Assembly (NCBI GenBank): GCA_030374765.1
Contig: JARGXX010000068.1
Span: forward strand, 3,844,001 to 3,908,000
DNA from: Agarophyton chilense
Taxonomy: Eukaryota > Rhodophyta > Florideophyceae > Gracilariales > Gracilariaceae
Length of the DNA stretch: 64,000 nucleotides
Direction of reading: 5' to 3'
Part shown: positions 356 through 62,649 of the stretch, in pieces
Numbering within the stretch: the stretch's first letter is position 1
Layout: every line of letters starts with the position of its first letter
Notes under the pieces: model-generated
Seen by the model: only the letters and a program-made list of their open reading frames with translations
The model's database searches: none
What the model was told of the DNA's origin: nothing
Made by a program: the position numbers and the translations under genes

Positions 356-1269
356 TGTGGAGCAAAACCCGGCGACGGGAAGTGCTCTCAAGGTGTTCGA
401 AGCCTTGCTCCCTGGGGGAGGCAGACTCAGAGACAGAGCCCTCCGTTCCACCCGTAGTGTGGGGTGTAACTCCCACGGGGGATTCCGGCAGTACCGACGG
501 AGGTGAGGGGTAGAAACCGTTGGATCGGGAATGGGTATGAGTATCCCAAAGAATGGGGGAAAATCCGGCGAACAGGAAAAACGGGGCGAGGGTCGGGCAC
601 TAACAGGCACCGGACCCGAGAACCAGAAAAGGGGCGAAACAACAAAAGAAACCCAATACAGGGGCGAAAACCTGTCCTGGAAAGGAAACACAAAAAGTAC
701 GCAACAAGTAAGCAGAACCCCCACGGGGTATCGTGCACGCAGGTCGTCTGAGCGGTCCCAAGGGGGTGGTTGCACGGAACCCAAACGTGGGCACTCTCCA
801 AGTGGAGTCGTGTCCCTACGCAGGCGTTGCTAACCAGAGCCCGTTCCGGGTTGTAAGGCCGAAACGATGGCGACGAAGAACCTCTAAAGGTATCGAAGAC
901 CAACCTTGGTTACCATTTACTTTGAGCTTCGGACTGTCAGATCTCATCTCCCTAAGTAGGGCCCACTAACTAAACTATACAGTAGTGCACACCTGCTCAG
1001 GGCCATACACGTGGAGATCCAACTGTCAGGGCCCAAAAGTCCAACGTTCTACAAATATCCGAAAATCGGTGCCAAAATTAAGCCACGTGTATCACGGGGC
1101 CAATCCAACCATGGGCCATCCGAATTTTCCCTTATAGGCGAAATATAACCGGAAAACAGTGCCACCTCAGCACACCGTAGAGGGGATCATAATCATTACC
1201 CTCGGAGGGTTCAATCCTCATTCTATGAGTTGCATCTTCAAGTATCCCCTAACTGGGCGTTGCTCTACA
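356..1269 (-). repeat. Element A 3' LTR
   Basis: 914 bp, with TG...CA ends. It is collinear with 6233-7146 at a constant offset of 5877 bases, so there are no length differences. All open frames inside it recur unchanged in the other copy. The polypurine tract of the minus-strand element abuts it at 1270-1285. Confidence 0.93.
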
Positions 1270-1311
1270 TCTCCCCTTCCTTAAGACGAGGAAGAACATT
1301 CCGAGCCGCGG

Positions 1312-2247
1312 GTGTCTAACTTTCCGATCACTATACATACTTCTTTCCCAATGGGGTCCTTCACCACTTCTGAGGATCGCCACAAAACCGGCACATCGGT
1401 ACAACTTTCTTCTACTCCTCCGACTTTCGGCGATACGCAACTTCTCGCAGCAGCGGTTTCGACTAGCCCTCTCAAGGGAATGAACCCATACGTCATCAAC
1501 CCACTCTCGGGGCCATCGGCCTCCGCGCCGGCGGACAACGAAGCTCCCCAGCAGGGTGGAGATTTCTCCGATGCTACGGACCATCATGCGTCAGATCGAC
1601 CTTGTCCCAGCGTTGGGTTCGGCCAGCAACGTGCAGGACCTGTATCCAATCTTGGACGTGATCGACAACACCCAATGGGATCGAGTTCCAGTGGTAAATC
1701 AACCGGCAGGGGAAGGATCCGCGCGAGACAAGTCTCCTGGCCGGTACGATCCGGGCTCCGGTAACTGGGTCTATTACAATCCCTTCGAAGGGGTTCGCAT
1801 CAGCGCGGCGCAAGCACGGGCGCTGATTGACTTGCCTCGACCGATGCCGGTGGGACACCCGACGGGGTTCATTTATACCGACGATTACGAGTACGAGCCT
1901 CCAGTAGACCTGGACGATCCAGAGTGGGATAACGAAGTGCCAGCTCCTAGTGGAGTACTCCCTGTGGAGCCATCTGCACCCACTAACCAGTGGGAACGAC
2001 CTCAGCTGCGGCGGCGAATGCATCCGGTGGCGGTCCATCTGCTCCCCCCGGGTGGGGTGTGAACCCCCTTGCGCAGGCGCCGGTTGCCACTCCGCAAGCG
2101 GATAGTGTGCGAAAAGGCCTCGTGAACGCAGGCATTCCGATTCCCCCGGGTATGACGGATGTGAGCCAGATGTTGGCTTTCGCCTCGGCGTACCATCAGG
2201 GTCAGAATCCCAACGGTGGGGCGGGTCCCTCCTCGGGCTTTCCGTAG
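1312..2247 (+). CDS. Element A opposite-strand ORF block
   Basis: Plus-strand open frames (1312-1764, 1556-2062, 1990-2247) running against gag of the same element and lying between the chromodomain tail and the 3' LTR. The middle frame has LDVIDNTQWDRVP followed by WVYYNPFEG and an acidic stretch. The opposite-strand frame of element B at 13396-12065 has LDFLEGVQWDEVP followed by FVYFDPW, so the two are homologous. The last frame (APVATPQADSVRKGLVNAG) is rich in Gly, Pro and Ala. Function unknown; no family recognised. Confidence 0.6.
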
Positions 2248-2316
2248 TTCCGCCTTCGGGCAATTGTAGAGTCCATAGCTTGGCGACAATAGTAAACTTC
2301 TGATATTTGCATAACT

Positions 2317-2453
2317 TCTTTTCTTCTTCCTTCCTAGGATCTTCTTTATCTTCTTCATTCCTTCTTAGGATCTTCTTCATCTTCTGCCCTTCCTAGGGTC
2401 CAATCTTCTTCTTAATCTTCTTCTCCACTTCGTGGGTCTTCTTTTCCTTTTTC
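2317..2453. repeat. CTT-rich imperfect tandem tract in element A
   Basis: Pyrimidine-rich run built from repeated CTTCTT and about three imperfect copies of a unit like TCCTAGGATCTTCTTCATCT. It lies between the opposite-strand ORF block and the chromodomain tail. It probably arose by slippage. Confidence 0.75.
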
Positions 2454-2628
2454 ATTATAAACTGTCCCGATAACCGGTGTTGTGATCCCCGGTTAACGGC
2501 GCTAGGCCGAGGGCCAGTAGACATTCCCTCTCAATACGTGTTCTTCGGGATACTCTCCTCAATTCCTCTTCAGAGGTCCAACATCTTCCTCACTTCGAGG
2601 TCGCATCCACAACAGTTCCCGTGGTGGC

Positions 2629-2841
2629 TTACCCGACTTGGGCACGATCCAGACTTGGAGGCAAGGTTACCCGAGCGCGTCGGTGATATGATAAAACCTT
2701 AGACCTCGGAAGGTGCTCAATGGGTTCCACTGTATCCTCATCAGGCGAGAATACGTACCATCGGACTTGGTAGCAGACTTCTCCCTCGGGGGTGTAGATG
2801 TGACGCACGATGCGATCGATAACGAATTCCTGCGGGTACAC
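2629..2841 (-). CDS. Element A chromodomain tail of pol
   Basis: Seventy-residue frame with YPQEFVIDRIVRHIYTPEGE, then WYVFSPDEDTVEPIEHLPRS. It matches the chromodomain of element B at 11067-11288 (VQEYVLDRIVGHSYDEHG, WDTPEPIEHLPRS). In chromoviruses this domain sits at the end of integrase and is thought to guide integration to marked chromatin. Here it is the only recognisable pol piece. Confidence 0.75.
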   Translation of the reverse strand: MYPQEFVIDRIVRHIYTPEGEVCYQVRWYVFSPDEDTVEPIEHLPRSKVLSYHRRARVTLPPSLDRAQVG

Positions 2842-3197
2842 TTTTCCCTGTTCGGGCTTCTATTCCATCTTGGAACGCTCTAGTTCCCTTGAGGGTGTCA
2901 ACGTAGGGTCTAGACACACCCCGGTGGGTTCTTTTCCGTGTTGCGAGCGGGTCTCAGCACTTCGTCCAAACGGCGCCGAGTGGCCTGTGGGCTACGTTGT
3001 AACTTCCGTCTACGGAGTCAAAACGGCCCAGTTTGGGTTCTTCTTAAAGCGGAGATCTTCCCGATAACAACGGTGTTCTTAGATTCCGTGACGGTTGAGA
3101 AACCGCGACGCGGTAGCGTCTCCAATCTCAGGGGGGTAAGACTTCAACGTCAACCCGAGCTACGGGGACGAAGGCTGCTCTTGTGCAACGCGCCGTG

Positions 3198-3302
3198 CGA
3201 CGGAGGCGGTTTGCAGGACGGTTGGTCGTCAGAGCCTTTTGATTGTCTCAGTGAGGCGGTTTGCGCGACGGTTGGTCGTCAAAGCCTTTTGATTGGCTCG
3301 GT
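3198..3302. repeat. Two-copy tandem repeat, unit about 50 bp, in element A
   Basis: GAGGCGGTTTGC..GACGGTTGGTCGTC..AGCCTTTTGATTG occurs twice back to back with a few differences. It lies in the interval between gag and the chromodomain tail. Confidence 0.8.
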
Positions 3303-3977
3303 GCAATTCGACGTGTGCCACATAAATGCACGGGCGCCGGTTGCCACTCCGCAAGCGGATGTGAGGTGGCGCTTTCGGCACGCGCTAGCACTCTCCTGAG
3401 CTGTCCCCGACGGGTCTCACTCATTTCTTTCCCATTCCTGAGGGTTCCAGTGTCTCCATAGGAGTTTCTATTCCCATTCCATAACGGAGAGCCAGATTTG
3501 GTCAACCTCGTCGTCGAGATCTTCCCCGTGCGGGTCCGCTGACACAGCTTGTTCCCGAGAAAGCGGGGTTTGGGTGTGCGGCACCTCAGTGTCTCTTCCC
3601 CGGCGGCGGGTGATCGTCGGCTCTATAGGCGTTCCGGGTGCGGACTTCTCCACACGACTCTCCCTAGGCGGGTTTTCGTCATCGTTTCTGACGTCGTGCT
3701 CGGCTGGGTCGGCGGTGATGTCGCTACCCATACGCTGGGGTTGTGACTTCTCTGTCGCCGGCTCGGTCGGGCTCGCCGTCTCACTGTGAGAACTAGATTC
3801 CCTGTTAGGGCGACTGGCTGACGCCGAAACATTGTCCTGCGAAGGAACTAAGTCCTCCTCCCCCTCCTTAGGCAGAGAGCCAGGAGGCTTGATTACCTCC
3901 GGTGGGGGAGTAACTCTGTAAGAGTTCGTTGACTGGGCCCTTGAGGGAGCGGGCCCAGGTTCGGGAGTATCCGAAGT

Positions 3978-6130
3978 TTAGTTTTTCGAAGCGGACCCCA
4001 CCGAATTCGGTGCAGCTGCGTCGAAGGGGACCGGTTGTTCCCCGTTCGCGGGTACAAGTTCTGTATCCCTGTCAGCAAGGTGAGCTCGGAGTATCCTTTG
4101 TTCCTCATAGGACCTACTCGGGACTCGAGCTTTCTCCTCAGGGGTCAGAGCCTCGTCCTGAGCGATAATTCGTGAACCCTCCCGCAGGGGAAATGTGCAG
4201 TCTGGTGCTTTGTGACCACGGAGGTAACACAAATAGTAAATCAGCTCTGCCGGGTTCGGTTGTGGACGTGAATCCACGCGAAGTGGTGCTGTATCCCTCC
4301 ATCCGGGGCGAGAGACCCGAGCAGCGGTATTCGCAAAATGTAGCGATGCGGCTGGCACCCTCCGTCCGTGGGTATAGAGGGCAGGGTCTTCATCCGTAGT
4401 CGGAGCGGATGTCGAGGGCAACTCAGATGTACCTATAGATTCGGGGTTACTTCCCATGAAGTGAATGTTATCATTGACCCCCACAGGGGCAGGGCCTCGT
4501 GCAAGTGACGAAGACGAGTTACCTCTATCGGCGAGGAGTGCACTTGTCGGCCGACTCTTTCGGTTCTGCCGGGCACGGAGAGTATCCCCCTCAGCCTGGG
4601 CGTACTGAACCAGTTCCAATTAGGTCAGCTTGCGCTTCTCTTCCCGATGTCGGGCAACCAATGCCCTTATCGAGGGGTCCAAACCATCCACAAACATGGA
4701 GCATCTCTCGTAGGCGGGGAATACATTCCCGCATCGGTGAAACGCTTTATTCAAGCGAGTTGAATACACCGTTTCGGTTTCCATCGGCTTCTGCCGCGTA
4801 TCCCTTAATGCAAGGGTTGCTTCCTGAATCGCATTTCCAGTAGCGTATGACCTCAAGAGGTACTGCACCGCTTCGGGCCAGCACGTGACTCCCCCTTCCG
4901 AGGCTCGGGATGATCCACGGACGGAGTTGAACTGGTCTTCAGCCATTCCCTTTAAGAAATAGGGTAATGCAAGATACGCTTGCGCTTCACTTATACCGAG
5001 GATGTCAGCCTCCTGGACGAACCTCGCAAGGAAATCGAGCACCAGAATTGGGTCTGTTCCTGTGAACTCCCTCTTCTGTAGGGTGATGCTCAGCCTTTTG
5101 ATGTAGTCCTTGACCTTACCCGTTCCGCGGGATGTTCGATCTCCCGAAGGGTTATCCAACGGGTAATAGCGGTACGATAGCAGCTTCCGATAGAGAGGAT
5201 TCGTTGGCTTCAGCTCCCTTAATCCAAGGTGTTTCCTACCCTTCTTCCGGGTACGGATTGCCCCTTGAGAGTGTAAGTAGCCTTCGACCGAGTCGCCCGG
5301 GATGACCGGCGTCCATCTTCACTATCCGAAGATTCGGAGGACGAACTCGATGACGAGCGATTGGGATCGGAATCCGATAAATCCTCTTGGAGGTGAACCC
5401 TCTTCTTGGACTTGCGGCGGTCCCGTTTAGCGGAGCGGTGTTCTTCGTCTTCCGAAACGTCGGGTTTATCCTTCGAGGCTTCTGTGTCTCCGTCCATACG
5501 GATAATGGCGTCGAGGGTGTCCAGCCGAGCTCGGAAGCGTTCCGCTTGCACGCGGTGCTCCTCCACGAGGCTCCGGTACTCCTGGATAACGACCCCAGGG
5601 GTACCAAAGCTTTCCAAAAGGGAGTTCACATCCCTCCTCAGGGTACGAAGGTCATCGGCGACTCCCCGCACCTGGGCGTCCTCCACCTTGAGGCGGAGGG
5701 TAGTAACCTCCTGAAGGAGCTCGACGTGAGCCGCGTTGGCGATATCAATTCGAGTCTCCAGGCGCTGTAATTCAGGGTCGGCCCGACTTCGGGGTGCTGC
5801 TGAGGGGGTCTCCACCACTGGAGCTGGGCCCACAGCCACGACCTCTCGAGGACCTGAAACCACTGAGGGTGCTCTCCGAGTGTCCGGATCGATACCGGAA
5901 TCGTTCCGACCTTCGGGAATTGAGCTCCTCGGCCTAGGCGGGGCCGGGGGCTCTAAATCTGCTTGACGGTTCGATCCAGTCCTGCAACCACGGGTAGGCG
6001 GCGTCATGCAGCAGACACGACACTGACGATTCGGTGTAACGATGAATTCGATCACGAGATTCCCGGAGAACGGATGACGTAACACAAAACAAAAATAAAA
6101 ACCAATTCCACCCTTTCCAAAGGGGACCAC
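3978..6130 (-). CDS. gag: Element A gag (three adjacent open blocks)
   Basis: Minus-strand frames 6130-5219, 5159-4620 and 4619-3978. The first is Pro/Arg rich, then helical (residues about 115-210: LETRIDIANAAHVELLQEVT), then a Ser/Asp/Glu stretch. The second is the retrotransposon gag core (VLDFLARFVQEADILGISEA, ALPYFLKGMAEDQF). The third ends with a zinc-knuckle-like stretch, LCYLRGHKAPDC. Gag forms the particle and packages RNA; chromoviral gags have this coil, core, knuckle order. A decayed relative of the core is at 27740-28940. Confidence 0.8.
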
Positions 6131-6212
6131 TACAACAAATCTTCACGACGGTGCTTCCTCTTCCAGGAGATATTCCAACACGTGGATGACCAACCAAAAG
6201 GCCAAGAACGGC

Positions 6213-6230
6213 TTCTAAGTCAGGAGACCA
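6213..6230 (-). other. Primer-binding site of element A
   Basis: Next to the 5' LTR the minus strand reads TGGTCTCCTGACTTAGAA, two bases from the LTR end. It starts with TGG, the complement of a tRNA CCA end. Elements D (21642-21625) and F (57236-57253) have nearly the same site, pointing to a shared tRNA primer. Confidence 0.7.
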
Positions 6231-6232
6231 CT

Positions 6233-7146
6233 TGTGGAGCAAAACCCGGCGACGGGAAGTGCTCTCAAGGTGTTCGAAGCCTTGCTCCCTGGGGGAGGCA
6301 GACTCAGAGACAGAGCCCTCCGTTCCACCCGTAGTGTGGGGTGTAACTCCCACGGGGGATTCCGGCAGTACCGACGGAGGTGAGGGGTAGAAACCGTTGG
6401 ATCGGGAATGGGTATGAGTATCCCAAAGAATGGGGGAAAATCCGGCGAACAGGAAAAACGGGGCGAGGGTCGGGCACTAACAGGCACCGGACCCGAGAAC
6501 CAGAAAAGGGGCGAAACAACAAAAGAAACCCAATACAGGGGCGAAAACCTGTCCTGGAAAGGAAACACAAAAAGTACGCAACAAGTAAGCAGAACCCCCA
6601 CGGGGTATCGTGCACGCAGGTCGTCTGAGCGGTCCCAAGGGGGTGGTTGCACGGAACCCAAACGTGGGCACTCTCCAAGTGGAGTCGTGTCCCTACGCAG
6701 GCGTTGCTAACCAGAGCCCGTTCCGGGTTGTAAGGCCGAAACGATGGCGACGAAGAACCTCTAAAGGTATCGAAGACCAACCTTGGTTACCATTTACTTT
6801 GAGCTTCGGACTGTCAGATCTCATCTCCCTAAGTAGGGCCCACTAACTAAACTATACAGTAGTGCACACCTGCTCAGGGCCATACACGTGGAGATCCAAC
6901 TGTCAGGGCCCAAAAGTCCAACGTTCTACAAATATCCGAAAATCGGTGCCAAAATTAAGCCACGTGTATCACGGGGCCAATCCAACCATGGGCCATCCGA
7001 ATTTTCCCTTATAGGCGAAATATAACCGGAAAACAGTGCCACCTCAGCACACCGTAGAGGGGATCATAATCATTACCCTCGGAGGGTTCAATCCTCATTC
7101 TATGAGTTGCATCTTCAAGTATCCCCTAACTGGGAGTTGCTCTACA
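6233..7146 (-). repeat. Element A 5' LTR
   Basis: 914 bp, same ends and content as 356-1269; GGGAGTT here against GGGCGTT there is the one difference I noticed. Target duplication GGACC follows directly. Confidence 0.93.
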
Positions 7147-9503
7147 GGACCTGAGTCATGTACCGGTCTCACACCGGGACCGCTTACGCGGAACGCTACG
7201 CGAGTTGACCACAATGTGGGACGGCTCACTGGGTGAGATCAATACAACCGAACATCGGATAGACTTTCGACCGGACGCACGTCCGGTTGCACAACCCCCT
7301 TACAGGGCGGGACCGAAGGCTCGGGAGGAGGAAGAATTTCAGGTGGACAAGATGCTCCGTGCTGGAGTCATCGAGCCCGCCCAATCTCCTTGGGCTTCAC
7401 CGGTGGTGCTGGCCCTCAAGGCTGACGGCACGTGGCGGTTTTGCGTTGACTACCGCCGCCTCAATGCCGTCACCGTGAGGGACACCTACCCGATTCCGCG
7501 CATGGACGAGTGTATAGACTCGCTCGGGGACGCTACCGTGTTTACGGCTCTGGATGCTAACTGGGGCTACTGGCAAGTCCCAGTCCGGGAAGAGGACCGA
7601 GACAAAACCGCGTTTGTTTGCCACTCGGGTTCCTACCGCTTCAAGCGGATGCCGTTTAGTTTAACCAATGCACCGGCCACCTTTCAAAGGGCAATAGACA
7701 TACTGATGTCGCGTTTCAAGTGGCGCACGTGCCTTGTCTACTTGGACGACATCATTGTCTTTTCCAGAAACCTGGACGATCACCTGACCCACGTGCGGGA
7801 CGTGATGACCGTACTGCGAGACGCAGGAATAACCCTCAAGTTGAGGAAGTGCGAGTTCTTCACCGACACGGTGAAGTATCTCGGGCACGTCATCCGTCCA
7901 GGACGGTTAATGATCGAACAAGTTCGTATCAAGTCCCTCTGCGAGGCGAAGGAGCCCCGTACTCAAACGGAGCTCCGATCCTTTTTAGGTCTGGTCAACG
8001 TCTATCGACCGTTTATACCGAGTTTCTCGTATATCGCCGCTCCGCTAAACGCGCTACTGCGGAAGGGCCAGCCACCGAAGCTTGCGCCATTTACCACCGA
8101 TCAGTCGGAATCTTTTCGCTCCTTGATTAAGGCAGTTACGACAGCTCCCATCCTATCCTTGCCCAAACCTGGGCTTCCCTACTCCATCGACACCGACGCC
8201 AGCGACCACCAGGTGGGCTGCGCACTGTTCCAAACCACCCCCGAGGGGGAAACGCAAACCAATTGGCTATTGGTCCCGCACGCTGAACGTCCACGAGCGC
8301 AACTACTCGGTCTCCGAGAAGGAGTGCCTCGCAGTGGTCTGGGCGCTATCCACTTTGCTCCCATACCTCATGGGCGTTCATTTCACCGTGTACACGGACC
8401 ATGCCTCGTTGAGGTGGCTGCTGAACATCGCAGATCCTTCTGGCCGCTTAATGCGGTGGCGCCTCCGCTTGACGGAATTCGACTTCGAAGTCGTCTACAA
8501 AAAGGGTGTCCAGAACACCCAAGCAGACGCCCTCTCTCGAGTACCTACGACAGGTGAAGCACTTGCCGACCCGGAGGTCGACGAGATCCCGTGCTTTACC
8601 TTGGAAGCGGAAACACCGACGGAGTCGGACTGGCCCGAAACCGGGGAAGACACCATGGAAATGGATGAGCTACTCGCAGCGCGCGAGAATGAAACACCCG
8701 TAGCCGGGACCTTTGTACCCATCTCCACGGAGGAGATGATCCGAGAACAGTTCGGAGACCCGTTCTGCACGCGCATACGGGCCCGCCTAAACGATGGAGA
8801 GGACCTGCCGTTCGAGGTAAACGACATCGGTTACCTCGTCCGGACGGTGGACCACCGATCCCAGATCGTGGTTCCCCACACCTTGCAAACCAGGGTGCTC
8901 CACCACTCACACTACCCGATCCTCGGGGGACACACCGGTGGGAGAAAACTTTATCTAACCCTGCGCAGGGACTTTTATTGGCCCGCTACGGCGGTTGATT
9001 GCTACGCTACGGTGCAGTTCTGCACCCAATGCGCAAAGAACCAGGTGAAACTCCGGAAGCACTCCAAACGGATGAAGCTTTTCACCGCAAGGGCGCCCCT
9101 CGAGTTTGTCGCAATCGACATTCTCGGGCCTCTACTCAAGACGCGCAAGGGAAACAAGTTCCTCTTGTTTATCACTGACCGCTTTTCGAAGCTGGTGCGC
9201 ACCGTACCTTTACGGAAGATCACCGCTTTCACGGTTGCGAACGCCTTCGTTACGCACTGGGCGTTCGTTTATGGCCCTCCGATAGAGGTTCTATCCGATA
9301 ACGGTAAGCAGTTCGCCTCTAAGTTCTTTCAGGACGTCTGCCGCATCCTCGACGTCAAGAACCTGTTTACTACCACCTACCACCCGCAAACAAAGGGGCA
9401 GGTGGAACGCTTCAACCGCACCCTACTCGCGTCGCTACGCTCCTACGTATCCGATCACCCAATGACGTGGGACATTTATTCTGATGCTATAACCTACGCC
9501 TAA
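7147..9503 (+). CDS. pol: Element B pol: reverse transcriptase, RNase H, integrase
   Basis: Two long overlapping open blocks (7205-8557, 8334-9503). RT: RFCVDYRRLNAVTVRDTYPI, ALDANWGYWQV, MPFSLTNAPATF and the catalytic YLDDIIVFS. Connection and RNase H: FLGLVNVYRPFIPSF, IDTDASDHQVGCALF, VYTDHASLRWLL. Integrase: H2C2-like region (HHSHYPILGGHTG, CTQCAKNQVK), then the core with AIDILGPL, VLSDNGKQFASKFF and TTYHPQTKGQVERFNRTL. Gene order RT-RH-IN defines Ty3/gypsy. Fossil with few breaks; the catalytic motifs are recognisable. Confidence 0.9.
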
Positions 9504-9548
9504 AACACGCAGGTCCACCAGACAACCGGTCTGACTCCCTTCGAGCTT

Positions 9549-11288
9549 GTGCTCTCCAGGACACCTCCGCCAGTGGCGGTCGAACCCCAACACAGGGTCA
9601 ACTCTTTCCCATCCGTGGGCCAATACCGCCTGAAGTGGAAGAACTGGATCACCAAGCTCGTACCAGTCGCCCGGAAGTCCATGGAACGTGCCCAGGCCGC
9701 CTACAAGCGGGACTTTGATAACCGCTTACGCGGACCACTACCGGCACCGCCCAAGCCGGGAACCTACGTGTTCGTTCGCCGGGAGTACTACAACCCCCGG
9801 ACCGACAAGCGTCACAAGCTCTCGCCTGTCGCTGAAGGTCCGTTCCGGGTCGTGTCCTCCCTCCCCGGCACCGTTGTGGTGGGCAAGAACGGCGACCACG
9901 AACGTCTTTCACAAGACCGCATCGTAGCCGCCCCACCACCACAGGCGGAAACCGCATCAGCCCCCGTCGAAACGGCCTCGTCGGATACCACGGGTACAAC
10001 GGTGGCACCACGCCCCGCCGTGGTACCGCAGCCCTCACGGGGTCTCTCCGATATACCGACTTTATCGGAACCACCGGCAATGCCGGAAATACCTGGCCCT
10101 CGCGGCCAGCTACCCTTACGGGCGCCGCGCAGCGGTATTTATACCCGCCATGCGGTTAGCCCACCATCACCCGTCGCTCCGTCTAAGGAGGGGGAGGGGA
10201 CCCGCTCAATCGCGGAAGCATCGCCGTCGCAACGGAAGTTTAACCGGGCACCCCGGGCAAGGCCCCCGAGCGGACAACCGGCATCGTCGCCGGACGCCAA
10301 TCCGCTCCCGCGGGACGCGGCGGTCAACCCGACCGCCACGCCACCCCGCAAGGGGAACCAAGGCTTTCGAAGACCCAAAGCCGGGAAGCGAGACCCTATT
10401 GACGCTCCGCATCGCGTGGAAGCAACTAAGGGCTCCCCGCGCATTCGCGGTCGCACACCGAGCGTTTCGGTCGATACCGGTACTCCGGCGGGCGCTGCGC
10501 AAGCAGGTCTAGCGAGCCACTCCGTTGAGAACGGTACGAACCCCATGGGGGAAAAGGGGCGCGACGACAAGTCGAAAACCGCCTCCCTTGCCGAACAATC
10601 GGAGCCAACCGTCCGCGACGGCCCGACCACCCGTCCTCAAGGTCACGTGACCTGGGCGGGAGATCGGACCAGTGGGCACCCGGCATCCCGGTCATTGGCT
10701 GACAGTCACCCCGCGGAGGCGGACCGCCGGGACGGTGAACCACTCACCGCCCACAGCGCACCGCACGGCGGAAACTGCCCACCAATGGGAACGCCTCATG
10801 CCGCAAATCAAGCGGAGGCCTCCGGCGAACCGTCACCAATACGGAAGGACCCCCGCCAACTCGCGGTAAGAGCGGACTTCAGGGAAGCCCCTACCGCCCA
10901 GCGGCAACAAAACCCGGCCGCGCCGGAAACTTCCGCGAAGCGGTACGGCAGCCCCGGCAACCCGGCAACAACTGCAGAGCGGAACTACAAACCGGGTGAC
11001 CCGGAACAGGCGACAACGAGCCCAGCACCACGCGGCGCTGAGGCTCGGGTCACCACCACCCGGCAAGGCCGGCAAGTTTACGTGCAGGAGTACGTCCTCG
11101 ACCGAATCGTCGGACATAGCTACGATGAGCACGGGGTGCTCCAGTACTGGACCCGCTGGTACGGAAACGGGCCGGAGTGGGACACCCCGGAGCCCATCGA
11201 GCACCTCCCGCGCTCCGCGGTAATGCGATACCACCGCCTTGCGGGGACCGCACTCCCAGCCACGCTGGTAAACGCCCAAGAGGGATAA
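9549..11288 (+). CDS. pol: Element B integrase C-terminal tail, disordered linker and chromodomain
   Basis: A 579-residue frame. It starts with the end of integrase (HRVNSFPSVGQYRLKW, FVRREYYNPRTDKRHKLSPV, EGPFRVVSSLPGTVVV; the GPY/F-like region). About 400 residues of Pro/Ala/Arg/Gly-rich low-complexity sequence follow, and it closes with a chromodomain (residues about 505-575: YVQEYVLDRIVGHSYDEHG, WDTPEPIEHLPRSAVMRYHR). A linker this long between integrase and chromodomain is unusual. Its high GC content sets it apart from the AT-rich host genes. Confidence 0.85.
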   Translation: MLSRTPPPVAVEPQHRVNSFPSVGQYRLKWKNWITKLVPVARKSMERAQAAYKRDFDNRLRGPLPAPPKPGTYVFVRREYYNPRTDKRHKLSPVAEGPFRVVSSLPGTVVVGKNGDHERLSQDRIVAAPPPQAETASAPVETASSDTTGTTVAPRPAVVPQPSRGLSDIPTLSEPPAMPEIPGPRGQLPLRAPRSGIYTRHAVSPPSPVAPSKEGEGTRSIAEASPSQRKFNRAPRARPPSGQPASSPDANPLPRDAAVNPTATPPRKGNQGFRRPKAGKRDPIDAPHRVEATKGSPRIRGRTPSVSVDTGTPAGAAQAGLASHSVENGTNPMGEKGRDDKSKTASLAEQSEPTVRDGPTTRPQGHVTWAGDRTSGHPASRSLADSHPAEADRRDGEPLTAHSAPHGGNCPPMGTPHAANQAEASGEPSPIRKDPRQLAVRADFREAPTAQRQQNPAAPETSAKRYGSPGNPATTAERNYKPGDPEQATTSPAPRGAEARVTTTRQGRQVYVQEYVLDRIVGHSYDEHGVLQYWTRWYGNGPEWDTPEPIEHLPRSAVMRYHRLAGTALPATLVNAQEG

Positions 11289-11620: not shown

Positions 11621-11938
11621 TCATTCCTCCGCACGAGGTGCACCCCCGCCCAGGCGGTTGGCTAAGGCATCCCGCATGGCGGCCACATCACCCAAGATCT
11701 CGGAAGGGCGAAGCCCCACCTCCCGAAGGAAGCGCGCGATGACCTCGCCCCGCTCCGCGCCAGCGGCAGTTGCGGGCGGGCCCGCCACCGATGGAGTCGG
11801 ATAGGAATCCGTTCGCACGGCATCAGCAGCCCCGGATGGAGCCGCACTACCGTATTCAACGGACTCCTCACCGGCCTCGCCGGACCCGTCATCCTCCATC
11901 GGAGCGTAACCAGGATCCTCCGGTTCGTTGTCGACCAT
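11621..11938 (-). CDS. Element B opposite-strand ORF, C-terminal block
   Basis: A 105-residue minus-strand frame: acidic start, Ala/Pro/Gly-rich middle, and a short helical end (VIARFLREVGLRPSEILGDV). It directly follows the 443-residue block at 13396-12065. The corresponding plus-strand frame of element A at 1990-2247 has the same Gly/Pro/Ala bias and a similar ending. Product unknown. Confidence 0.5.
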   Translation of the reverse strand: MVDNEPEDPGYAPMEDDGSGEAGEESVEYGSAAPSGAADAVRTDSYPTPSVAGPPATAAGAERGEVIARFLREVGLRPSEILGDVAAMRDALANRLGGGAPRAEE

Positions 11939-12064
11939 CGGGTCACCATCCGCATAGTCGTGGTAATAGTCGCTCGAGTCGACATACTCTCTCGGGTGGT
12001 CGGCCGGGACTTTAAGCGGCGCATGCCGGCTGGCTTCCGCTTCCTCGCGGCTGATCTCGTGGTA

Positions 12065-13396
12065 CTACCAGGGGTCGAAGTAGACGAAATCCCCCGCTAG
12101 CGCGGTATTCCTCCCGAGTCCGGGGCCAGACCCGCGACGCGGTTGAATGCGTTGGGAGTTCTCCAGCGGGACTTCATCCCACTGGACCCCCTCCAAAAAG
12201 TCGAGGAGGCCCAGCATCTCTTCTTCGTTCGCCTCGCCCCCGAGGAGGATGCGCATGTCCAAACGACGGATCGCAGCCCGCACACGCGGTGGCACGTACC
12301 ACAATCGGTATTGGTCGTACGCCTCAGCGAGGATAAAAGCCGCAGTGCGGACGGCCCATTCGCTTACCACGACGGACCGCCACCCCGACTGGGGATCGTT
12401 CAAGAACGACGACCCTACATAGGTGAATACTGGGGGCAGCTCAACGAAGCAACCCCAGCACGCCTCCAATGAGGACCACCATTCTGGGAGACTGACGTAC
12501 CGACCACGTCGGTGAGCAGGCGCGATGCGCTCAATCTCCGTGTTCTGGTACGGTACGAAATACCCGGTCCGGGCCCGCCAACGCCGCTCATCGTGGATGA
12601 AGTTCTGAAGGAAGTTCGAGCGCGACTTCCGCGGTTGATAGCGGAACTCTGCTCGAAGAATCGGTCGTGCCCAGCAAAGGGCTTCTTGCCGAGCGATCGG
12701 TGTGCCCCTCCAAGCGAGGGTTTCCAATCCGTTAAGACGGTCACAGTACGACATTTCCCCGCGAGTGCGGTAAAGGTGGACGTCGAATTCGACCTCTGGC
12801 GGTATCGGGAACTCGAAAGGCGCCCGATGGTGCCTGAGATAAGCAATCCGCACAAGCGCGGCTTGAGCCTCCGCAGAGGATTCACCGCGTCGGCGGAGTA
12901 TGTGGTGTACCGGGATGGCGATACGATTACGCCAATCCCAGGACAGGGTCACCACGCCGGGCAGGTCGCCCGGGAGCATCTCCGAGTTATCGGTGTAGGA
13001 TTGGATCAAATCCTCGTCGCGGACAGCCAATGGGTGAAACCAAGGCGCATACCGCAACATCGCGGAGCCAAGCCGAGTTCTCGGATTTGCACCCACAAGG
13101 GCGTCGTAGGTCGGCCACTGTGGTGGGTCCGCCTGTCCCCAAAAGCGGGCGCCAATACGGCGGTCTTCGTACGCGAGGTTGGTAACATCCCCAGGGTGGG
13201 GCGCGGACCGGAAGCCGGTGGAACCGCCAAGGGCGGGAGTCGCGGATGTGTTATGACGGTCGGGGTTGGACATGGTGCGTGTTGGTGTGCTGTGGTTGGA
13301 ATCGGATGCGGAGAGCGTACGTGGGATCCATGGTGAAGGTGTGTTGGTTTCCGGAGACCCGGTGTCGGACGCGCTCTTATCATGACGAGCTGCCAT
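12065..13396 (-). CDS. Element B opposite-strand ORF, main block (443 aa)
   Basis: Long ATG-started minus-strand frame between the chromodomain end of pol and the 3' LTR. N-terminal about 70 residues are Ser/Thr/Pro rich. Then come Trp- and Tyr-rich, apparently folded stretches: RLGSAMLRYAPWFHPLAVRD, RAEFRYQPRKSRSNFLQNFI, YVSLPEWWSSLEACWGCFVE and, near the end, LLDFLEGVQWDEVP and DFVYFDPW. The YVSLP..W and LxDxxxxxxWxxVP motifs recur in the opposite-strand frames of elements A, E and F. I recognise no known protein family. Its length and the conservation between families argue that it is a real element gene, not a shadow of pol, since pol has ended by 11288. Confidence 0.7.
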   Translation of the reverse strand: MAARHDKSASDTGSPETNTPSPWIPRTLSASDSNHSTPTRTMSNPDRHNTSATPALGGSTGFRSAPHPGDVTNLAYEDRRIGARFWGQADPPQWPTYDALVGANPRTRLGSAMLRYAPWFHPLAVRDEDLIQSYTDNSEMLPGDLPGVVTLSWDWRNRIAIPVHHILRRRGESSAEAQAALVRIAYLRHHRAPFEFPIPPEVEFDVHLYRTRGEMSYCDRLNGLETLAWRGTPIARQEALCWARPILRAEFRYQPRKSRSNFLQNFIHDERRWRARTGYFVPYQNTEIERIAPAHRRGRYVSLPEWWSSLEACWGCFVELPPVFTYVGSSFLNDPQSGWRSVVVSEWAVRTAAFILAEAYDQYRLWYVPPRVRAAIRRLDMRILLGGEANEEEMLGLLDFLEGVQWDEVPLENSQRIQPRRGSGPGLGRNTALAGDFVYFDPW

Positions 13397-13442
13397 GCCG
13401 ACTTCCTCTTCGAGGTGTTCGCCCTGTCTTAAGGGGGGGATA

Positions 13443-14306
13443 TGAAGAGCAACGTCCTCCAGGGAGGTTTTGGGGACTTAAGTTTTTTCCGGAGCCTCCG
13501 GCGTGCAACCTCTTTATGAGTACGAGTAATCCGTTTTTACGGCGATGGCCGGAACGCCGGTGATGCACCGGCGGGACCGGGTGCCATACACGTGGCCGCA
13601 GCGCCCGCGCGACACATGGCCGCCAGATTGGCCCCTTTGTTAGACGGACATTTAGCTATTTAGGGTAGACTTTATTTATTCTGTTCTACGGTGACTACAG
13701 TACTTAGGCCGCCGGCCTCGCGGCCGCCGGTCCAGTAAAATCTCCCCAACAAGGGTGATATTGGTCTTCCAGATCTTGGCTCTGGGTCGAACCGCCTGCG
13801 CGGATGTACAACTCCTTACGGAGGAATTTCCCGTGGTGCACGGCTTCCCAACCCCCTTGGACGTTCAAGCAGCCTTCGTGTGTTGGGTATCTATTCCCAC
13901 TTTCGTGGTTCCACCCGTGTATACGGTTTGCTACACCCGGTAGTGCCGGCTATTCCCGAGTCCCCACTTGCGACTCGTGGTCAACCTCGCCCTCTTGCCT
14001 CCGTTCCCATTTTCCTTCCCTTTTCCTCCCCTTTATTGGGCAATTCCCGCTCTTGCGGCTCGCACTGACACCTGTCGTGCTCGCCACTCTCGTGGGCTTT
14101 TCCTCCTCAGAGGATACGCAAGCACCGCATTACGCGGATATTCTCGGCTTCTTTCAGCCTCCCTGCGCCCGTCGCGACGGTTCGGCTCCGGCTTACACCC
14201 GGCATTGCGCGCGGATCCCTGGGAGGGCTCTTCCGCGCCGGTTACCTCGTGAGAGGAAGATCCGGACGTCTTCGTGGGTTTTCCCCCTTGGGGGCATTGT
14301 CCTACA
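13443..14306 (+). repeat. Element B 3' LTR (only one copy in window)
   Basis: Placed from the polypurine tract TTAAGGGGGGGA (about 13429-13440) and a TG start resembling the element A LTR (TGAAGAGCAACG here, TGTAGAGCAACT there). The end is at TGTCCTACA (14306), after which Helitron coding sequence resumes. Without the second LTR the ends are inferred, to within a few bases. Confidence 0.6.
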
Positions 14307-17543: not shown

Positions 17544-18137
17544 TCAAGTTTCGCCTGAGGACTGACGCTGTTCCTTGATGTGGGAGCTACGCCGAACGGT
17601 CGGGTCGAGAGGCGTATCGCGAAGCGTTTTGGGAGGCGGTTTGGAATTATTCGGGCCAATGGCTGCCCCCTCCTGAAGGATGGGCTCCGTGCCGCCGATT
17701 TTGCGCCCATAGCGGGCAATAAAATTCGCTCGAATGGTCTGAGCCTGTTGCCAAGTGTCTTTCTCGGGAGAATATCCAAACAAACTAATGCAATAGCGCT
17801 TTGTTCCATCTTCTCCTCGACCGGCGGAGATGATTCGTTCAATACCCTATTTTTGTTGGTGTTCCTCCTCCAGAAGGAGAGTGTGGTCCAGAGGGCCGCA
17901 TTCATCGGAGTCGACTGGGAGAGATGGGTCATCTTCATTGGCGTTGACTAATGGGTTCGTGGGGATAGTCAGGACCGCGGAAATTGCCTTAGGAGCTGTG
18001 GGGACCTGAGCTTTGACAGGAGGTTGTGGGGATTCCGTTGTGTCGAAGGGCTGGGACATTGGTGGTCCGGAGGAATTGGGAGCTCGTGTCACCCGATCAA
18101 TATACACGGTGTCCTGTAGGCCGTCAATTAGTATCAT
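17544..18137 (-). pseudogene. Element D integrase tail with chromodomain-like end
   Basis: Minus-strand pieces after the integrase core. One holds LFGYSPEKDTWQQAQTIRAN, which fits the second half of a chromodomain (W.GY....TWE....), preceded by a Pro/Ser/Thr-rich stretch. The end of this region matches 61130-61348 in element F (GVAPTSRNSVSPQAKLEEDL against AVAPASGNKVSPSATPEEDL). Fossil. Confidence 0.6.
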
Positions 18138-18347
18138 GATTGTGTGTTGAATGGCCCTAAGGACTTTATATGGGCCCGTCGAGCGGCGTAGGAGTTTCTG
18201 CGTAGTATCCTCGACTGCATCACCGTCTTTCGGTGCCTGGTCCAGTTAAACCAATTCTCCTTTCCCAAATGTAGGTGTATTCCTGACGGTTTTGTCGAAA
18301 TTGACCTTGTATTGCCGTTGGAATTTGGTCAGTACACCTCTAGCTGA

Positions 18348-19197
18348 TTAGATAATGCTGTCGATGCGTCGGCGCGAGTACCGTTTCGCCTGAGTAGGGG
18401 CCATCTCTTCGGTTATGTCCTGGGGTGTAAGGGACTCCTGAAGGTCAACAGCTATCGGCGGTGTCGATCTCGTTAGCTTTAAAATAAAAGGTGTTGTCCC
18501 GGTGGAAGCGTTTACTTTCGTGGTGTAGGCGTAAGCCAGTGATTCTACGTTGTCGTCCCAGCCTAATTGGGGCTCCGATACATAGTGTGCCAATCGGTCC
18601 TGAAGGGTACAGGTGGAGCATTCGGCTTGCCCATTGGTTTGCGCGTGGTATGGCGTGGTGGCTACATGTTTGATACCTAAGGTAGCACAAACGTGCGAAA
18701 AGAATTTGGATACAAACTGGCTCCCATTATGTGTAAGGAGGTATACGGTCATGCAATAGGGATATACCCAGTGGAACAAGAAGGCTGTGGCGACATCCGT
18801 GGCTGTTGTCTTTTCTAGAGGTAGTGCTCGGGTAAATTTGGAAAAACTATCCGTTATTATCAAGACGAACCGTTTCCCATGGGACGACTTGGACAAAGGT
18901 CCAAGGATATCCCTTGCGACAAATTCCATCGGGCCTGTGGCCGGGAAAAGTTTCAATTTGGCCTGATGGTTGGCGCGAGACCCTCGGATTTGTGCGCACG
19001 AAGTACAGTTCCGTGTGGCTAGCCACAAGTGCTGCGCTACTAGTGGCCAGCAGGGAAACTTCCTTATAGTCTGGTACATTCATCGGCCTCCAGGGTGACC
19101 AGCCAAGCGAAGGACATAGGCGAAGTATAGGAATCGCGCCCTCAATGAAATTGGTACTATCCGTTGGAGTGCGCCATCCAGTTGTGAGTGGCGACAT
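18348..19197 (-). pseudogene. pol: Element D integrase
   Basis: Contains the end of the H2C2 region (TRNCTSCAQIRGSRANHQAK) and the catalytic core: MEFVARDILGPLSKSSHGKR, LIITDSFSKFTRALPL, LLTHNGSQFVSKFFSHVCAT, TTPYHAQTNGQAE. Typical Ty3/gypsy integrase order, here decayed. Confidence 0.82.
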
Positions 19198-19382
19198 AAT
19201 AGTCTGAATCGGTCGTAGTCGAATAATTATTCAGGGGCTTCTACCAATTGGGCCGTTTCCTTGCAGTACTCGTCTTCGAAATGCACCTTTAGGAGCTCCT
19301 CAATAGTTATAGGGAGGAGCTCTTTTTCCTCTGGGGTTATTACACAAACCTGAGGTGATATGGAATTGGTTGGTACTATCTT

Positions 19383-20853
19383 TCAGTCCAATAAATACAC
19401 TTCATTCTGCTTTACCCCAGGATCATCCACTTTGACAGTACCCACAAGGTAATCTATTTCCGTATTATCCTGAGGTCCATCATATGTGAAGAGAGTAGAA
19501 ATGAGGTCGTCCAATGGCGTGTCATCAGATCCGTCGGTAATGATTCGGGAGAGGGCATCTGCTTCCTGGTGCTTGATGCCTGGACAGTAGGTTATATTAT
19601 AGTTATACTCTGAGAGCCGAAGGCGCCAACGAGAGAGGTGACTTGATGCATCGGTCATATTGGGTAACCAGCGGAGTAAGTCGTGGTCTTTCCTAATGGT
19701 GAACCAAGTCCCCTCGAGGTATGGACGCAGTGTCAGTACGGACCATACGATTGCTAGAAATTGCTTTTCGATAGTAATATAGTTTCTCTCCGCGCTGGAG
19801 AGCGTTCTGCTCCAGTATTCAATAGGTCCATAATACTTTGGTGAATTTCGTGCCTGTAACAGAGCACATCGCACTTTGACATCAGAAGCGTCTGTGTCCA
19901 AGATAACGGGCCTATTGGGATTCCGTAAAGCCAGTATGGGTTTGTTTAGCAATTTGTCATTTAGGGTCTGAAATTCCTGATATTGGTCCTTCTCTTCTTC
20001 AAGATTGCGTTGAAAGGGGCCGAGATTTTATCAAATCCTTGGACGAAACGTCGGTAGACATTGCACAAGCCCACTAAGGATCGTAATTCCGTGTGTGTTC
20101 TGGGACGTTTAGCCTGGCGGATTGCATTCGTGGTCCGTGTGGCTACCTTTCACTTTCCTGGGAGGACGAAGTGACCGATATAGTTCACTGAGGCCTGGAA
20201 GAGGGCGCATTGGCGGAGTTTCAGTGATACTCCGGCGCCCTGTAGGATTGTTAGCACCGTCTTCACTTCGATTAGGTCTTCATTCACGGTCCGTGAGAAG
20301 ATTATTACGTCATCCAAATAGTCCAGGGCCAATTTTCATTTGACTTTGGACAGTATGGTGTCCATTACACGTTGGAAGGCTGCTGGTGAATTCTATAAAC
20401 CAAAAGGCATAAGAGTAAATCTGAATAGACCTTCACGGGTGGTGAAGGTTGTCAGCACTCTTGCATCCTCAGCCGTTGGGATTTGCCAATATCCGGAATT
20501 AGCGGTCAGTGAGGTGAATACGTCTGCTTCACCTAAGAATCTAGACATTCATCCATACGGGGTATCGGGTATGAATCCCTCTTGGTTCCTGCGTTCAGCA
20601 TCCTGTACTCGACACAGAGCCTGACGAAGCCGTCTTTCTTAGCCGCGGGGACAAGGGGATTTGCCCATCCGGATTGGTTAGGAGCCGCCGGCTCGATGAA
20701 ATGAGCTTTGCGCATTTTGTCCATCTGGTCGGCGACAGTTTCCCTACCTTTCAGGCCTGTACGGTATGTGTGCTCCAACTGTGGTTTAGCATCATCCTGA
20801 ATGACAATAAGTTGTGTAGTGGCTCTGATTTTTCCCAATCTACCTGACCACAT
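19383..20853 (-). pseudogene. pol: Element D reverse transcriptase and RNase H
   Basis: Minus-strand blocks. RT start: RLGKIRATTQLIVIQDDAKP, VRLCVEYRMLNAGTKRDSYP, IPRMDECLDS (20853-20533). Polymerase motif: LDYLDDVIIFSRT (about 20332-20290). RNase H: VILDTDASDVKVRCALLQAR, YWSRTLSSAERNY, CPGIKHQEADALSRI (19952-19383). Fossil with several breaks. Confidence 0.82.
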
Positions 20854-20890
20854 GGTCAGGTATTCCTTGAGGAGATCAATTACCTGAGGC

Positions 20891-21610
20891 TTATAGGATT
20901 CGAATTCTGTGGCGATAAGGTCTATCCCCTCCCCAAGAGTCGATGTCCTCGTCGGGAGTTCGTGTTAAAAGGTTATCCAGTTGGGACTCTCTGATGGCCA
21001 CAGGCGCAGGTAGAGTGATGCCAGTCAATGTAAATTTAGGTAACCGTACGGGTTTATCTCTGAAGTTGCTGATTGTGACCAAGAAGGGCCTGTTAGGGAT
21101 TATTCGAGTAATGAGGTAATCCGTATGGTCGGCGATCGCCGTAGCGAGCCGCATGTGCACCATGCAATCCATGTGAGCAGAGCAGAGCTCACGGAGATGG
21201 GGCCAGAGAAGGTAAGCAAGCCTTGCGGGAATGTTCACTGTAATTACTTCTGTCTTACGGAGTTCTACTTGGGGTGTCCCTTGCCTAGAGGTGGACCTGG
21301 TGAGGCGTTCTCGTAAACGCGCTGCCACCGTGGGTTCTCGGCAAATCCTTTCAGGGTCTTCCAGGAGAGACAGTACTTCCTGCGGCTGGCTTCTCGTGCT
21401 CCTGCGGTCACTATCAGTAACAAACTGTTGTTCAGGCGACATAGTCGGCGTTGCAGTTGAAACATGTCTTGCTGTAGGAGTCCTATGGTCTGGTTGGTTG
21501 GGTGTGTTTCCTGCATCCATTATGGCGGATGCTTCTATTCTTCTGGTCTGTTGGGGAATAAATCCAAAGACTAGAATCCGTATAATTCTTCTTTCGAGTG
21601 GTCTGTTCAA
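20891..21610 (-). pseudogene. Element D N-terminal block (protease-tail-like)
   Basis: A 239-residue frame just inside the 5' LTR. It starts with a Pro/Thr/Ser-rich stretch (GNTPNQPDHRTPTARHVSTA) and ends with NRPFLVTISNFRDKPVRLPK, which resembles the retropepsin-to-RT linker of element B at 1-100. A homologous start follows the LTR at 57268. I see no gag core in it. Confidence 0.5.
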
Positions 21611-48228: not shown

Positions 48229-48355
48229 CTTAAATGACAAGAAGAAAGCAATGGATAAAGAGTCCAGGGTCCCGGCAAACAATGCCACTCAGAGTGAGGG
48301 AAACAACAGTTTACTCAGACGCAAATCGCATCAATATGTTATCAACATAACAGCT

Positions 48356-52818: not shown

Positions 52819-53948
52819 GTGAGCGCTGGCCATAGTTGCATCGCCGGCGCATTCTTCGCGTCGCGTTGCCTGGATGGTCCGTTGGCTTTTTCTCCTCTAA
52901 CGATCATTGGGGCCTTCCTTAGTCTCCGTTCTTCCTTTGGAGACCCTCCGCGCTCCGTCCCCCGCGGTTTACGCCTTTCAGTCCGTTCGGGTCAATTCCG
53001 TCACCCCTTCTGCCCATCGTGGTACTTTTTCATTGTTCGCGCACGATGGCGAACTGGCCTTGTGAGCCCGTCGGATACGTCGTTCTCCCTCCGGACTTTG
53101 TCGCTTCCGTCGGTCGTCCTATTCATTTCCCGGCGGACAAGCCTGTGGGCAGCGGCACCATGGCTTTGAACAACCAAACGGGGAGCTCCTCGGTATATCA
53201 AGTGGCCTACGAACTTCCCAGGTACCGCTATGACCATACTATCGAACGAAACTCGCGGGCAGTGCCTCATGCCATTCTTACGTCCTCTGTGGAAAAATAC
53301 CAAAGGTTTTGCCATATGTATCTCGACGTCCTGAGGTTCGCGACGATACCAGATTTCCGGAGGGGCACTAAGCACACGCGCAGCGGCTCTTGGTACAAAC
53401 GGTAGTTACATTGTCCTGGGGATCCGCGTTTGGCGACGCGCTGTAGCACCCTCATCCAAGCAGACATGCCGTACGTCCGCTGCGAGGAGGAAGCTGAGTA
53501 CCGGTTCAGGATGAAAAAACTCCTCTTAGACCTATAAAGGGACTTCATCTCGCCTCATGTGCGATTTCCTCCGGTGGGTCACAACCACCTGGCGCTTATG
53601 AGCTTCCATCTGCCGCATGACCGCCTGTTTTGGATGTTCAATAGGGTCTATTGGAACGAGATGCACGAGCCCGATGGTCGTCTACGTCAATCTGTGGAGT
53701 TCTTCTTCTGCTGGCACCAGGTGGAGTTTCACGACATGAGCGCCGACATGTGTCCTCCGTCATATCTCTCGTTGCCTCGTGCAGATGAGAACCAATGGGC
53801 CATGTTCTGGCGTGTTTCGCCGTTCCTTTTGGTCCCCACGACGTCCGTGGTGGCGTTCCATTCGTGCCAACTCAAGGGTGACGACAATGACCGAAGGTCT
53901 TGGATCTCCTGGCAGGTACTCTTCTTCGAGTTCGGCGTGATGTTGTAG
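52819..53948 (+). CDS. Element E opposite-strand ORF block, first half
   Basis: Plus-strand frames 52819-53169, 53019-53405 and 53559-53948. They include CEPVGYVVLPPDFVASVGRP, GSSSVYQVAYELPRYRYDHT, HNHLALMSFHLPHDRLFWMF, HEPDGRLRQSVEFFFCWHQV and YLSLPRADENQWAMFWRVSP. The last motif has the same layout as YVSLPEWWSSLEACWGCFVE in element B's opposite-strand protein. Trp/Tyr/His rich; no known family. Interrupted on its right by a solo LTR. Confidence 0.6.
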
Positions 53949-54758
53949 AGCAATCCCAGATGGGTAAATACCTCTCGGGTGTTCGAGTCCCGCTCTCGTG
54001 AAGAGAGGTAACTCAGCGAACGAGCCTTAGTGCCACCGATGCGTGGGTGTAAGACCACGGTGGTTCAGGCAATACCTACAAAGGTGATGACTCCAGGAAA
54101 AGGGGAAGAATCAAAGGGGGATCCAAGTACAAGGATATTCCGCGGACAACGGCAAAGTGTAGGGCGAAAGTGAAGGGCGAAATAGAACGCACGACCAAGC
54201 GTACATACCTATGAAAGAGGTATCCACACTGGATAAGCGAAATAAAGATGGTTAAAAACAACCCTATACAGGGTCGGTGTACTGACCAAACACAGGAAAA
54301 CCAACAAAAGAGAGAAACACACCATTAAAGATGGTACAGTGACGCCTGAGCTTCCCGAGGGGATAGATTAGCCAAACCGGTCGCGGTTACTGCCGTTAAG
54401 AGACGGAGACTCTCGTAGGCGACATAATCTAGAGCCAAACACTCGGTTACCATTTACTTGGTGGTAGCGATGGCGGTGAAGCATTCGCTTAAGTCTATTC
54501 TAGACAGTGGACTACACGTGTAGACTATAGTAGTGCAAACCAATCCTGGTTCATACACGCATCATACGTGTAACCCCTGCCTTGCACTTCCTTCCGTCCA
54601 CTACGGTGCTACTGTAAAGACTTAACTAACATACCTTCTAGGGTGTCTAAAAAACTAGAAACTAACATTACTCATAAAACCATCAACGTGGTCCCTGATA
54701 TATCGGACGCCATATGAATGGTGCTCCGACCGGTTATACGCGCACGCGTTGCTCTGCA
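53944..54758 (+). repeat. Solo LTR of the A/B chromovirus group inside element E
   Basis: 815 bp from TGTAGAGCAATCCC to GCGTTGCTCTGCA, collinear with the element A LTR (shared GGTGTTCGA, GGTTACCATTTACTT, TAGTAGTGCA, CATACACG, GCGTTGCTCT). Flanked by GATGT and AATGT, a 5-bp duplication with one difference. No internal region, so it results from recombination between LTRs. The inverted arm carries the same copy at 62650-63464. Confidence 0.8.
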
Positions 54759-54890
54759 AATGTCCCTTATGGCCCTCCTGAATACCGCGAAATCGGCGTC
54801 CGTGGTAATGTCCGTTCGGAGGATTAGAGGGTATGGCACGACGAGAACATACTCGGTCCTCGAGGTCGTTTAGTTCTGCTCCCGGACATC

Positions 54891-62517: not shown

Positions 62518-62649
62518 GATGTCCGGGAGCAGAACTAAACGACCTCGAGGACCGAGTATGTTCTCGTCGTGCCATACCCTCTAATCCTCCGAACGGACAT
62601 TACCACGGACGCCGATTTCGCGGTATTCAGGAGGGCCATAAGGGACATT

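Follow-up and report, generated by a model that had tools for sequence, protein, structure and literature searches.

The window analysed here is a stretch of 64,000 nucleotides from the red alga Agarophyton chilense (assembly GCA_030374765.1, contig JARGXX010000068.1, positions 3,844,001 to 3,908,000 of the forward strand), in whose own coordinates all positions are given. It contains a retroelement, B, which lies on the + strand and has a second element, A, nested within it (Table 1). Judged by its domain content (RT, RNase H, integrase and a C-terminal chromodomain), B is a chromodomain-bearing Ty3/gypsy element, its pol matching the Pfam families RVT_1 (E 3.9e-34), RT_RNaseH (E 2.3e-28), Integrase_H2C2 (E 3.9e-11) and rve (E 4.4e-11). 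Bases 1-183 match the stretch before the RT in a third-family copy and are therefore assigned to an earlier part of B; a Pfam scan of the B frame in these bases gave no match.

Table 1. Retroelement features of the window.
Feature	Position	Strand	Remarks
Element A, second family, nested in B	356..7146	-	internally deleted
LTRs of A	356-1269 and 6233-7146		99.8% identical
Target-site duplication (TSD) of A, GGACC	351-355 and 7147-7151
Antisense gene of A, N-terminal piece	1351..1570	+	reaches the deletion junction
Antisense gene of A, C-terminal piece	1559..2241	+	46% and 43% identical to P0008, E 5e-35
Chromodomain remnant of A pol	2632..2850	-	convergent with antisense gene of A
gag frames of A, interrupted	3468..6142	-
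pol of B: RT, RNase H, integrase	7130..9503	+	two overlapping frames
C-terminal pol frame of B	9504..11288	+	convergent with antisense gene of B
Chromodomain of B pol	about 11091-11231	+	PF00385 Chromo, E 0.0011, 19.3 bits (below the Pfam cut-off of 25.1; weak taken alone)
Antisense gene of B	11621..13396	-	ATG at 13396; 591 codons plus stop; near full-length match to P0005
Open 443-codon part of antisense gene of B (P0001)	12065..13396	-
Polypurine-tract-like stretch of B	13430..13442	+	immediately before 3' LTR; recognised by eye
3' LTR of B	13443..14306	+	864 bp, TG...CA
Antisense gene of D, N-terminal piece	16743-16949	+	67% and 71% identical to P0015 for the two pieces
Antisense gene of D, C-terminal piece	16955-17332	+	core deleted between the pieces
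pol of D, interrupted	17547..21142	-	convergent with antisense pieces of D
Antisense gene of E	53046..55942	+	parts 53046-53942 and 54789-55942; 68-77% identical to P0015
Antisense gene of F	61466..63999	-	inverted copy of the E gene; runs off the window

Beyond the end of pol, B carries a gene on the opposite strand. The two are arranged tail-to-tail, 332 bases apart, and the antisense ATG stands 47 bases from the 3' LTR. As the polypurine tract and the 3' LTR follow beyond this start codon, the antisense gene lies inside the element; in eight B copies, similarity stops at the outer end of the 3' LTR. The span given in the initial annotation, 11621-13396, is exactly the complete gene (592 codons including the stop). 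The 443 codons reported there for B are indeed open from 13396 to 12065, but the full gene is longer, an in-frame stop at 12065-12067 cutting the 591-codon frame in this copy. A 617-residue protein of Gracilariopsis chorda (P0005) aligns with it from 13396 down to 11636, and a further frame, P0002 (11662-12024), lies outside the conserved antisense frame. The distance from the end of pol at 11288 rules out a shadow frame of pol, as the annotation had held. A nested insertion of another element as the source of the frame is likewise ruled out by its position beyond the chromodomain in four families; in B and the second family, the two inspected, it sits before the polypurine tract. In the window copy, the antisense region has a stop-free run of 458 codons, against a maximum of 460 and a mean of 203 in random sequences of matching composition. 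Its length alone is compatible with chance, and it is the homologues that decide. In another B copy (L004) the run reaches 607 codons, against a maximum of 427 among 1000 Markov-1 sequences. Neither strand of the B and A LTRs showed any of a few TATA motifs looked for, and a bacterial-type promoter scan near the LTR, which has little meaning in a eukaryote, found no promoter. Right behind the 3' LTR of B lies a Helitron_like_N piece (14412-14921, E 1.6e-37); a weak PIF1 helicase match at 22500-22994 (E 3.2e-4, below the cut-off) is also a Helitron piece.

Antisense genes of elements A, D, E and F

Element A is young, given its almost identical LTRs. Its two antisense pieces are in different frames, both opposite in strand to its gag; compared with second-family loci, the antisense core is short of about 950 bases, and 9 bases are common at the junction. 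The junction stretch (1440-1680) recurs nearly complete, at 97-100% identity, in all 40 matches scored among 546 candidates, so copies with this deletion have multiplied. Because these relatives of A multiplied with the core of the gene deleted, the antisense protein is dispensable in cis. Within A, Pfam reports Retrotrans_gag at 4623-5318 (E 2.4e-5), the two other gag pieces have no Pfam match above the cut-off, and besides the chromodomain end no RT or integrase was found. To judge from this coding content, A must have been moved in trans by proteins supplied from elsewhere, the second family being a candidate source. The antisense deletion of A, an element with gag and without an RT or integrase match, is common to at least 39 other places. 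A second gag-like remnant, 29-44% identical to the gag pieces of A, lies at 27599-28683 on the - strand.

Elements D, E and F belong to a third family. D is old, as its LTRs are only 77% identical. An insert splits the E gene at about 53943-54788, and its frame is also broken; the open frames 54891-55583 and 55580-55945, listed in the initial annotation, are fragments of this one gene of about 680 codons. E and F occupy opposite arms of an inverted repeat (47937-56059 versus 61349-69471, the second arm running from 61349 to 64000 in the window and on to 69471 in the contig). The arms are 99.9% identical over at least 8.1 kb and about 5.3 kb apart, and we therefore count E and F once; they represent either a recent inverted duplication or an assembly artefact. 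The initial annotation had placed antisense frames in A, B, D, E and F beside the chromodomain end of pol. Homologues of the gene are present in all five, but those of A and D have lost their core, and E and F are one duplicated locus. Using B pol as the query we found no chromodomain beside E or F, only a scrap of 27 residues of a pol C terminus near F (about 61206-61286, E 7e-4).

The antisense gene is conserved in four families and retained beside pol

We searched the genome (79.8 Mb, 135 contigs) with four antisense proteins; the resulting counts are lower bounds, since they cover best matches only. For B, P0001 gave at least 95 scored places among 1801 candidates (itself and 94 others, 93-96% identical); by hand count, 67 of these 95 are free of stops in the matched part. 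For the second family, to which A belongs, P0008 gave at least 75 among 1893, of which 43 were stop-free, again by hand count. The third-family query, P0003, gave at least 150 scored places among 580, namely the two of the window and 148 at 68-80% identity; many contain stops, although the frame in locus L042 is open over 682 codons (P0015). A fourth family, outside the window, was represented by at least 68 scored places among 1833 candidates, 37-43% identical to the query P0010. Whole-genome motif counts, with up to two mismatches, gave 167 for the B antisense core and 163 for the B pol end, and the reversed control motifs had no match. Three B antisense genes at G000:C68:3138181-3157903 follow one another at intervals of exactly 9197 bases, and on C77 a pair lies 9249 bases apart; these are probably tandem copies with common LTRs.

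Facing the antisense frame, we detected the chromodomain of pol at 45 of 48 loci searched: 8/8 for B, 30/30 for the second family, 3/6 for the third and 4/4 for the fourth. The three misses are thus all in the third family, two of them being E and F of the window. This count includes the B copy of the window and leaves out 16 further B copies that had been cut to contain the pol end; B pol served as the query for every chromodomain search, so that distant pol ends may escape. Among public proteins, of which about 8000 candidates were scored per search, P0001 had 8 matches at E 0.001, alignment A1 had 8 and P0015 had 4. The named relatives come from Gracilariopsis chorda and Agarophyton chilense, and some are nearly full-length. 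Homologues in other elements, which the initial annotation had called for, therefore exist in four families.

The antisense proteins of B, the second and the fourth family are 34-41% identical over 390-471 residues (BLASTP). The third family is more remote: it shares 21% identity with B (E 2.6e-4), and BLASTP at E 0.01 gave no row linking it to the second or fourth family. Profile-profile comparison nonetheless joined it to the others with a probability of 97.6 and an E value of 3.2e-12 over 203 columns, and a smaller comparison gave 86.4 and 4.7e-6. A further protein, P0019, acts as a bridge, being 35% identical to P0015 over half its length and matching P0005 (E 2e-9) and P0010 (E 4e-10), where the E values hold for single comparisons. 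We calculated identities of integrase and of the antisense protein over the columns common to all four families. For integrase (100 columns) these were 0.66 between B and the second family, 0.55 and 0.52 from these to the fourth, and 0.36-0.43 to the third; for the antisense protein (388 columns) the corresponding values were 0.371, 0.356 and 0.358, and 0.204-0.214. Both proteins thus give the order ((B,2),4),3. Given this matching order, the gene is probably older than the split of its families. The agreement supports inheritance of the gene together with integrase, although with four families it is no proof.

Selection on the frame and features of the protein

Between B and the second family, identity at the three codon positions is 0.52, 0.58 and 0.34 (562 codons), the pattern expected of a coding frame under constraint. 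Together with the copies, the homologues and the agreement with integrase, it bears out the central claim of the initial annotation: several chromodomain-bearing Ty3/gypsy families have, at their 3' end, a conserved antisense gene that belongs to no recognised family.

Within families, the signal is weak. Pairwise dN/dS was 0.53 for B (8 copies), 0.51 for the second family (30 copies) and 0.47 for the C terminus of B pol, whereby the values of 0.51-0.53 are biased downwards by the choice of copies by protein score and the second-family chromodomain was left out as shorter than 100 codons. The mirrored frame on the opposite strand, aligned on third positions, had dN/dS values as low as the gene itself (0.57 for B, 0.50 for the second family) and contained 160 stops in the 8 B copies and 642 in the 30 second-family copies. 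In a broader sample of 24 B copies (the 8 and 16 further ones spread over the list), omega of the antisense gene was 0.83 for singletons and 0.71 for shared variants, compared with 0.82 and 0.89 for the pol C terminus. Stops occurred in 10/24 copies of the antisense gene and 8/24 of the pol C terminus, but in 24/24 when this region was read in any of its other five frames; no stop variant was common to several B copies, where 4.5 were expected. In the 30 second-family copies, the N/S ratio fell as variants were found in more copies, from 1.88 (singletons) through 1.55 (two copies) to 1.06 (three or more), whereas in the two shifted frames singletons gave about 2.6 and variants present in at least three copies 3.7-5.5. 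No such fall was seen in the 8 B copies (1.53 for singletons, 1.83 for shared variants). As the second-family chromodomain, with an N/S of 4-5, likewise shows no visible constraint, the test is insensitive. In the sample of 24 B copies, omega is not far from neutral for antisense gene and pol C terminus alike. A weaker signal within families is expected because copies decay after insertion. Ka/Ks between copies, proposed earlier as a test, lies below 1 as anticipated, but only mildly so in the less selected sample.

The antisense protein has about 590-690 residues, of which a core of about 350 is conserved. Its head is rich in Ser, Thr, Pro, Gly and Ala; these five make up 54-58 of the first 100 residues in five of seven proteins, and 44 and 34 in the other two. 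The tail is variable and, in four of the six proteins that have it, acidic, with a net charge of -10 to -19 over residues 400-500; in P0008 and P0019 it is about 0. A short C-terminal stretch is conserved in the families near B. Third-family proteins carry near the C terminus a PKKRAR-like stretch, which we take to resemble a nuclear localization signal; none is evident in B and the second family. Peak hydropathy over 19 residues was 0.91-1.45 in five proteins of the B, second- and fourth-family type and 1.58 and 1.82 in two of the third-family type, suggesting no clear membrane segment in the former and a borderline case in the latter. Pfam, PDB and plasmid searches returned nothing convincing (best PDB row E 0.82), in keeping with the first impression that the proteins belong to no recognised family. 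More specifically, no match to TRP28 (PF04195) appeared even with the E limit set to 1 or 5, and Pfam gave none to a bZIP domain; a scan of IMG/VR gave 10 pattern matches and no relatives. Profile comparison of one gag piece of A with the antisense protein gave a probability of 0.1, and BLASTP at E 0.01 found no match between gag pieces and antisense proteins.

Possible roles and known antisense genes

That the frame is a real, conserved protein-coding gene is highly probable. Our best reading, towards which we lean slightly, is that it would constitute a third gene of a chromodomain-bearing Ty3/gypsy lineage in gracilarialean red algae, expressed from an antisense mRNA and acting in trans as a regulator. 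As the gene is opposite in strand to gag-pol, the genomic RNA cannot serve as its messenger. A separate transcript would have to be made from integrated copies, starting in or beside the 3' LTR and running toward pol. We infer that the protein acts in trans and probably in the nucleus, and that it may regulate the element's own transcription, its silencing or its integration, as has been proposed for plant antisense ORFs and is known of HBZ. For an accessory regulatory role as such, we consider the chances evenly balanced.

The protein could instead serve the particle in a structural or enzymatic capacity (as an Env-like or nucleocapsid-like part or an integration co-factor), its antisense coding being incidental. 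The gene and the pol end are kept in similar numbers and the conserved core is large, as such a helper might require, but a messenger apart from the genomic RNA would be an odd route to a particle part, no clear membrane segment is seen in B, the second and the fourth family (the third being open in this respect), and the comparison with the A gag piece speaks against a gag relation. We regard a particle helper as unlikely. Env-like proteins, moreover, are characterized by sense orientation and a membrane segment, whereas the red-algal gene is antisense and has no clear segment, the third family being borderline.

Still less probable is a role of the antisense RNA rather than the protein, whereby convergent transcription would produce double-stranded RNA over the 3' end of pol and limit the element or feed host silencing. 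The tail-to-tail layout would permit this, and such a role is under discussion for plant elements in the accessible part of PMC7264820. Yet codon positions 1 and 2 are conserved far above position 3 between B and the second family, amino-acid identity extends along most of the protein in B, the second and the fourth family, and the third is a remote homologue; as an RNA would not need conservation at the protein level, a pure RNA role is disfavoured. That the gene was taken from a host and is a mere passenger, with no role for the element, is very improbable: the lack of Pfam and PDB matches would allow such an origin, but the gene occupies the same place in four families whose relationships are ordered as for integrase, and no host relative is prominent, judged by sequence, among the matches listed. 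Chance open frames in GC-rich DNA, to which the random run lengths and the window copy would point, are refuted by homologues across families and species and by open frames of about 590 codons in other copies, and their probability is negligible.

Elements of flowering plants and deltaretroviruses supply most of the known antisense genes that lie at the 3' end in LTR elements. Among the latter, HTLV-1 encodes the bZIP protein HBZ, likewise in antisense at its 3' end; transcription of the red-algal gene would similarly need a start within the 3' LTR or next to it, but the red-algal proteins match no bZIP domain. The plant Retand and Grande elements have a like layout, with a gene opposite to gag-pol between pol and the 3' LTR. 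According to the accessible parts of PMC11963269 and PMC7264820, such antisense ORFs (TRP28, PF04195, of Retand; gene23 of Grande; those of RIRE2 and PvRetro13) lie between pol and the 3' LTR, have a proposed regulatory role and are of unknown function; the TRP28 domain is encoded by 97% of Retand clusters (abstract; PMC11963269 / PMC7264820). Retand, however, is a non-chromovirus of flowering plants, a lineage without a chromodomain, whereas the B-type elements carry one at the C terminus of pol. TRP28, the plant protein compared by sequence, is unmatched by the red-algal antisense proteins; with gene23 and the RIRE2 protein the likeness is one of layout.

With chromoviruses the red-algal elements share RT, RNase H, integrase, C-terminal chromodomain, LTRs and polypurine tract, a likeness judged by domain content. 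In the titles and abstracts covered, and in the accessible portions of PMC5970526 and PMC12477816, we found no antisense gene in chromoviruses or red-algal elements, which does not establish novelty. The Gypsy lineages of the brown alga Ectocarpus are also algal and have a chromodomain at the integrase end, but are reported outside the chromoviruses, with no antisense gene mentioned in the accessible part of PMC12477816. While the layout is thus known from Retand and Grande, the protein family and its setting appear new. If unrelated to the plant genes and deeply conserved, the red-algal gene would be a further case and would suggest repeated recruitment of the antisense layout. Its recent copies, its four families and the multicopy derivative A without the core of the gene provide a testing ground for such genes.

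Tentatively, we also consider a fuller version of the preferred reading, a third gene with an antisense mRNA and a regulatory product in trans, although we doubt that it holds in all its parts. The gene would be an ancient marker of the red-algal chromodomain lineage, its protein a new family as old as the family split. Antisense-only coding would let resident copies, and not the genomic RNA, make the protein, which might assist the chromodomain integrase in trans, by countering silencing or by steering integration, and be exploited by non-autonomous relatives which, like A, are without the core of the gene and the greater part of pol.

The window holds several other genes. A GMC oxidoreductase frame of 629 codons (45247-47136, - strand) is probably a host gene among the elements. 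On the same strand lie a germin-like Cupin frame of 167 codons (48356-48859; Cupin_1 E 1e-14) and a 315-codon frame (41644-42591) whose protein-kinase match is weak (E 2.2e-7) and falls just short of the Pfam cut-off. A Tc1/mariner-like transposase occupies two frames at 49386-50642 (HTH_Tnp_Tc3_1 E 9.5e-7; DDE_3 E 5.8e-13).
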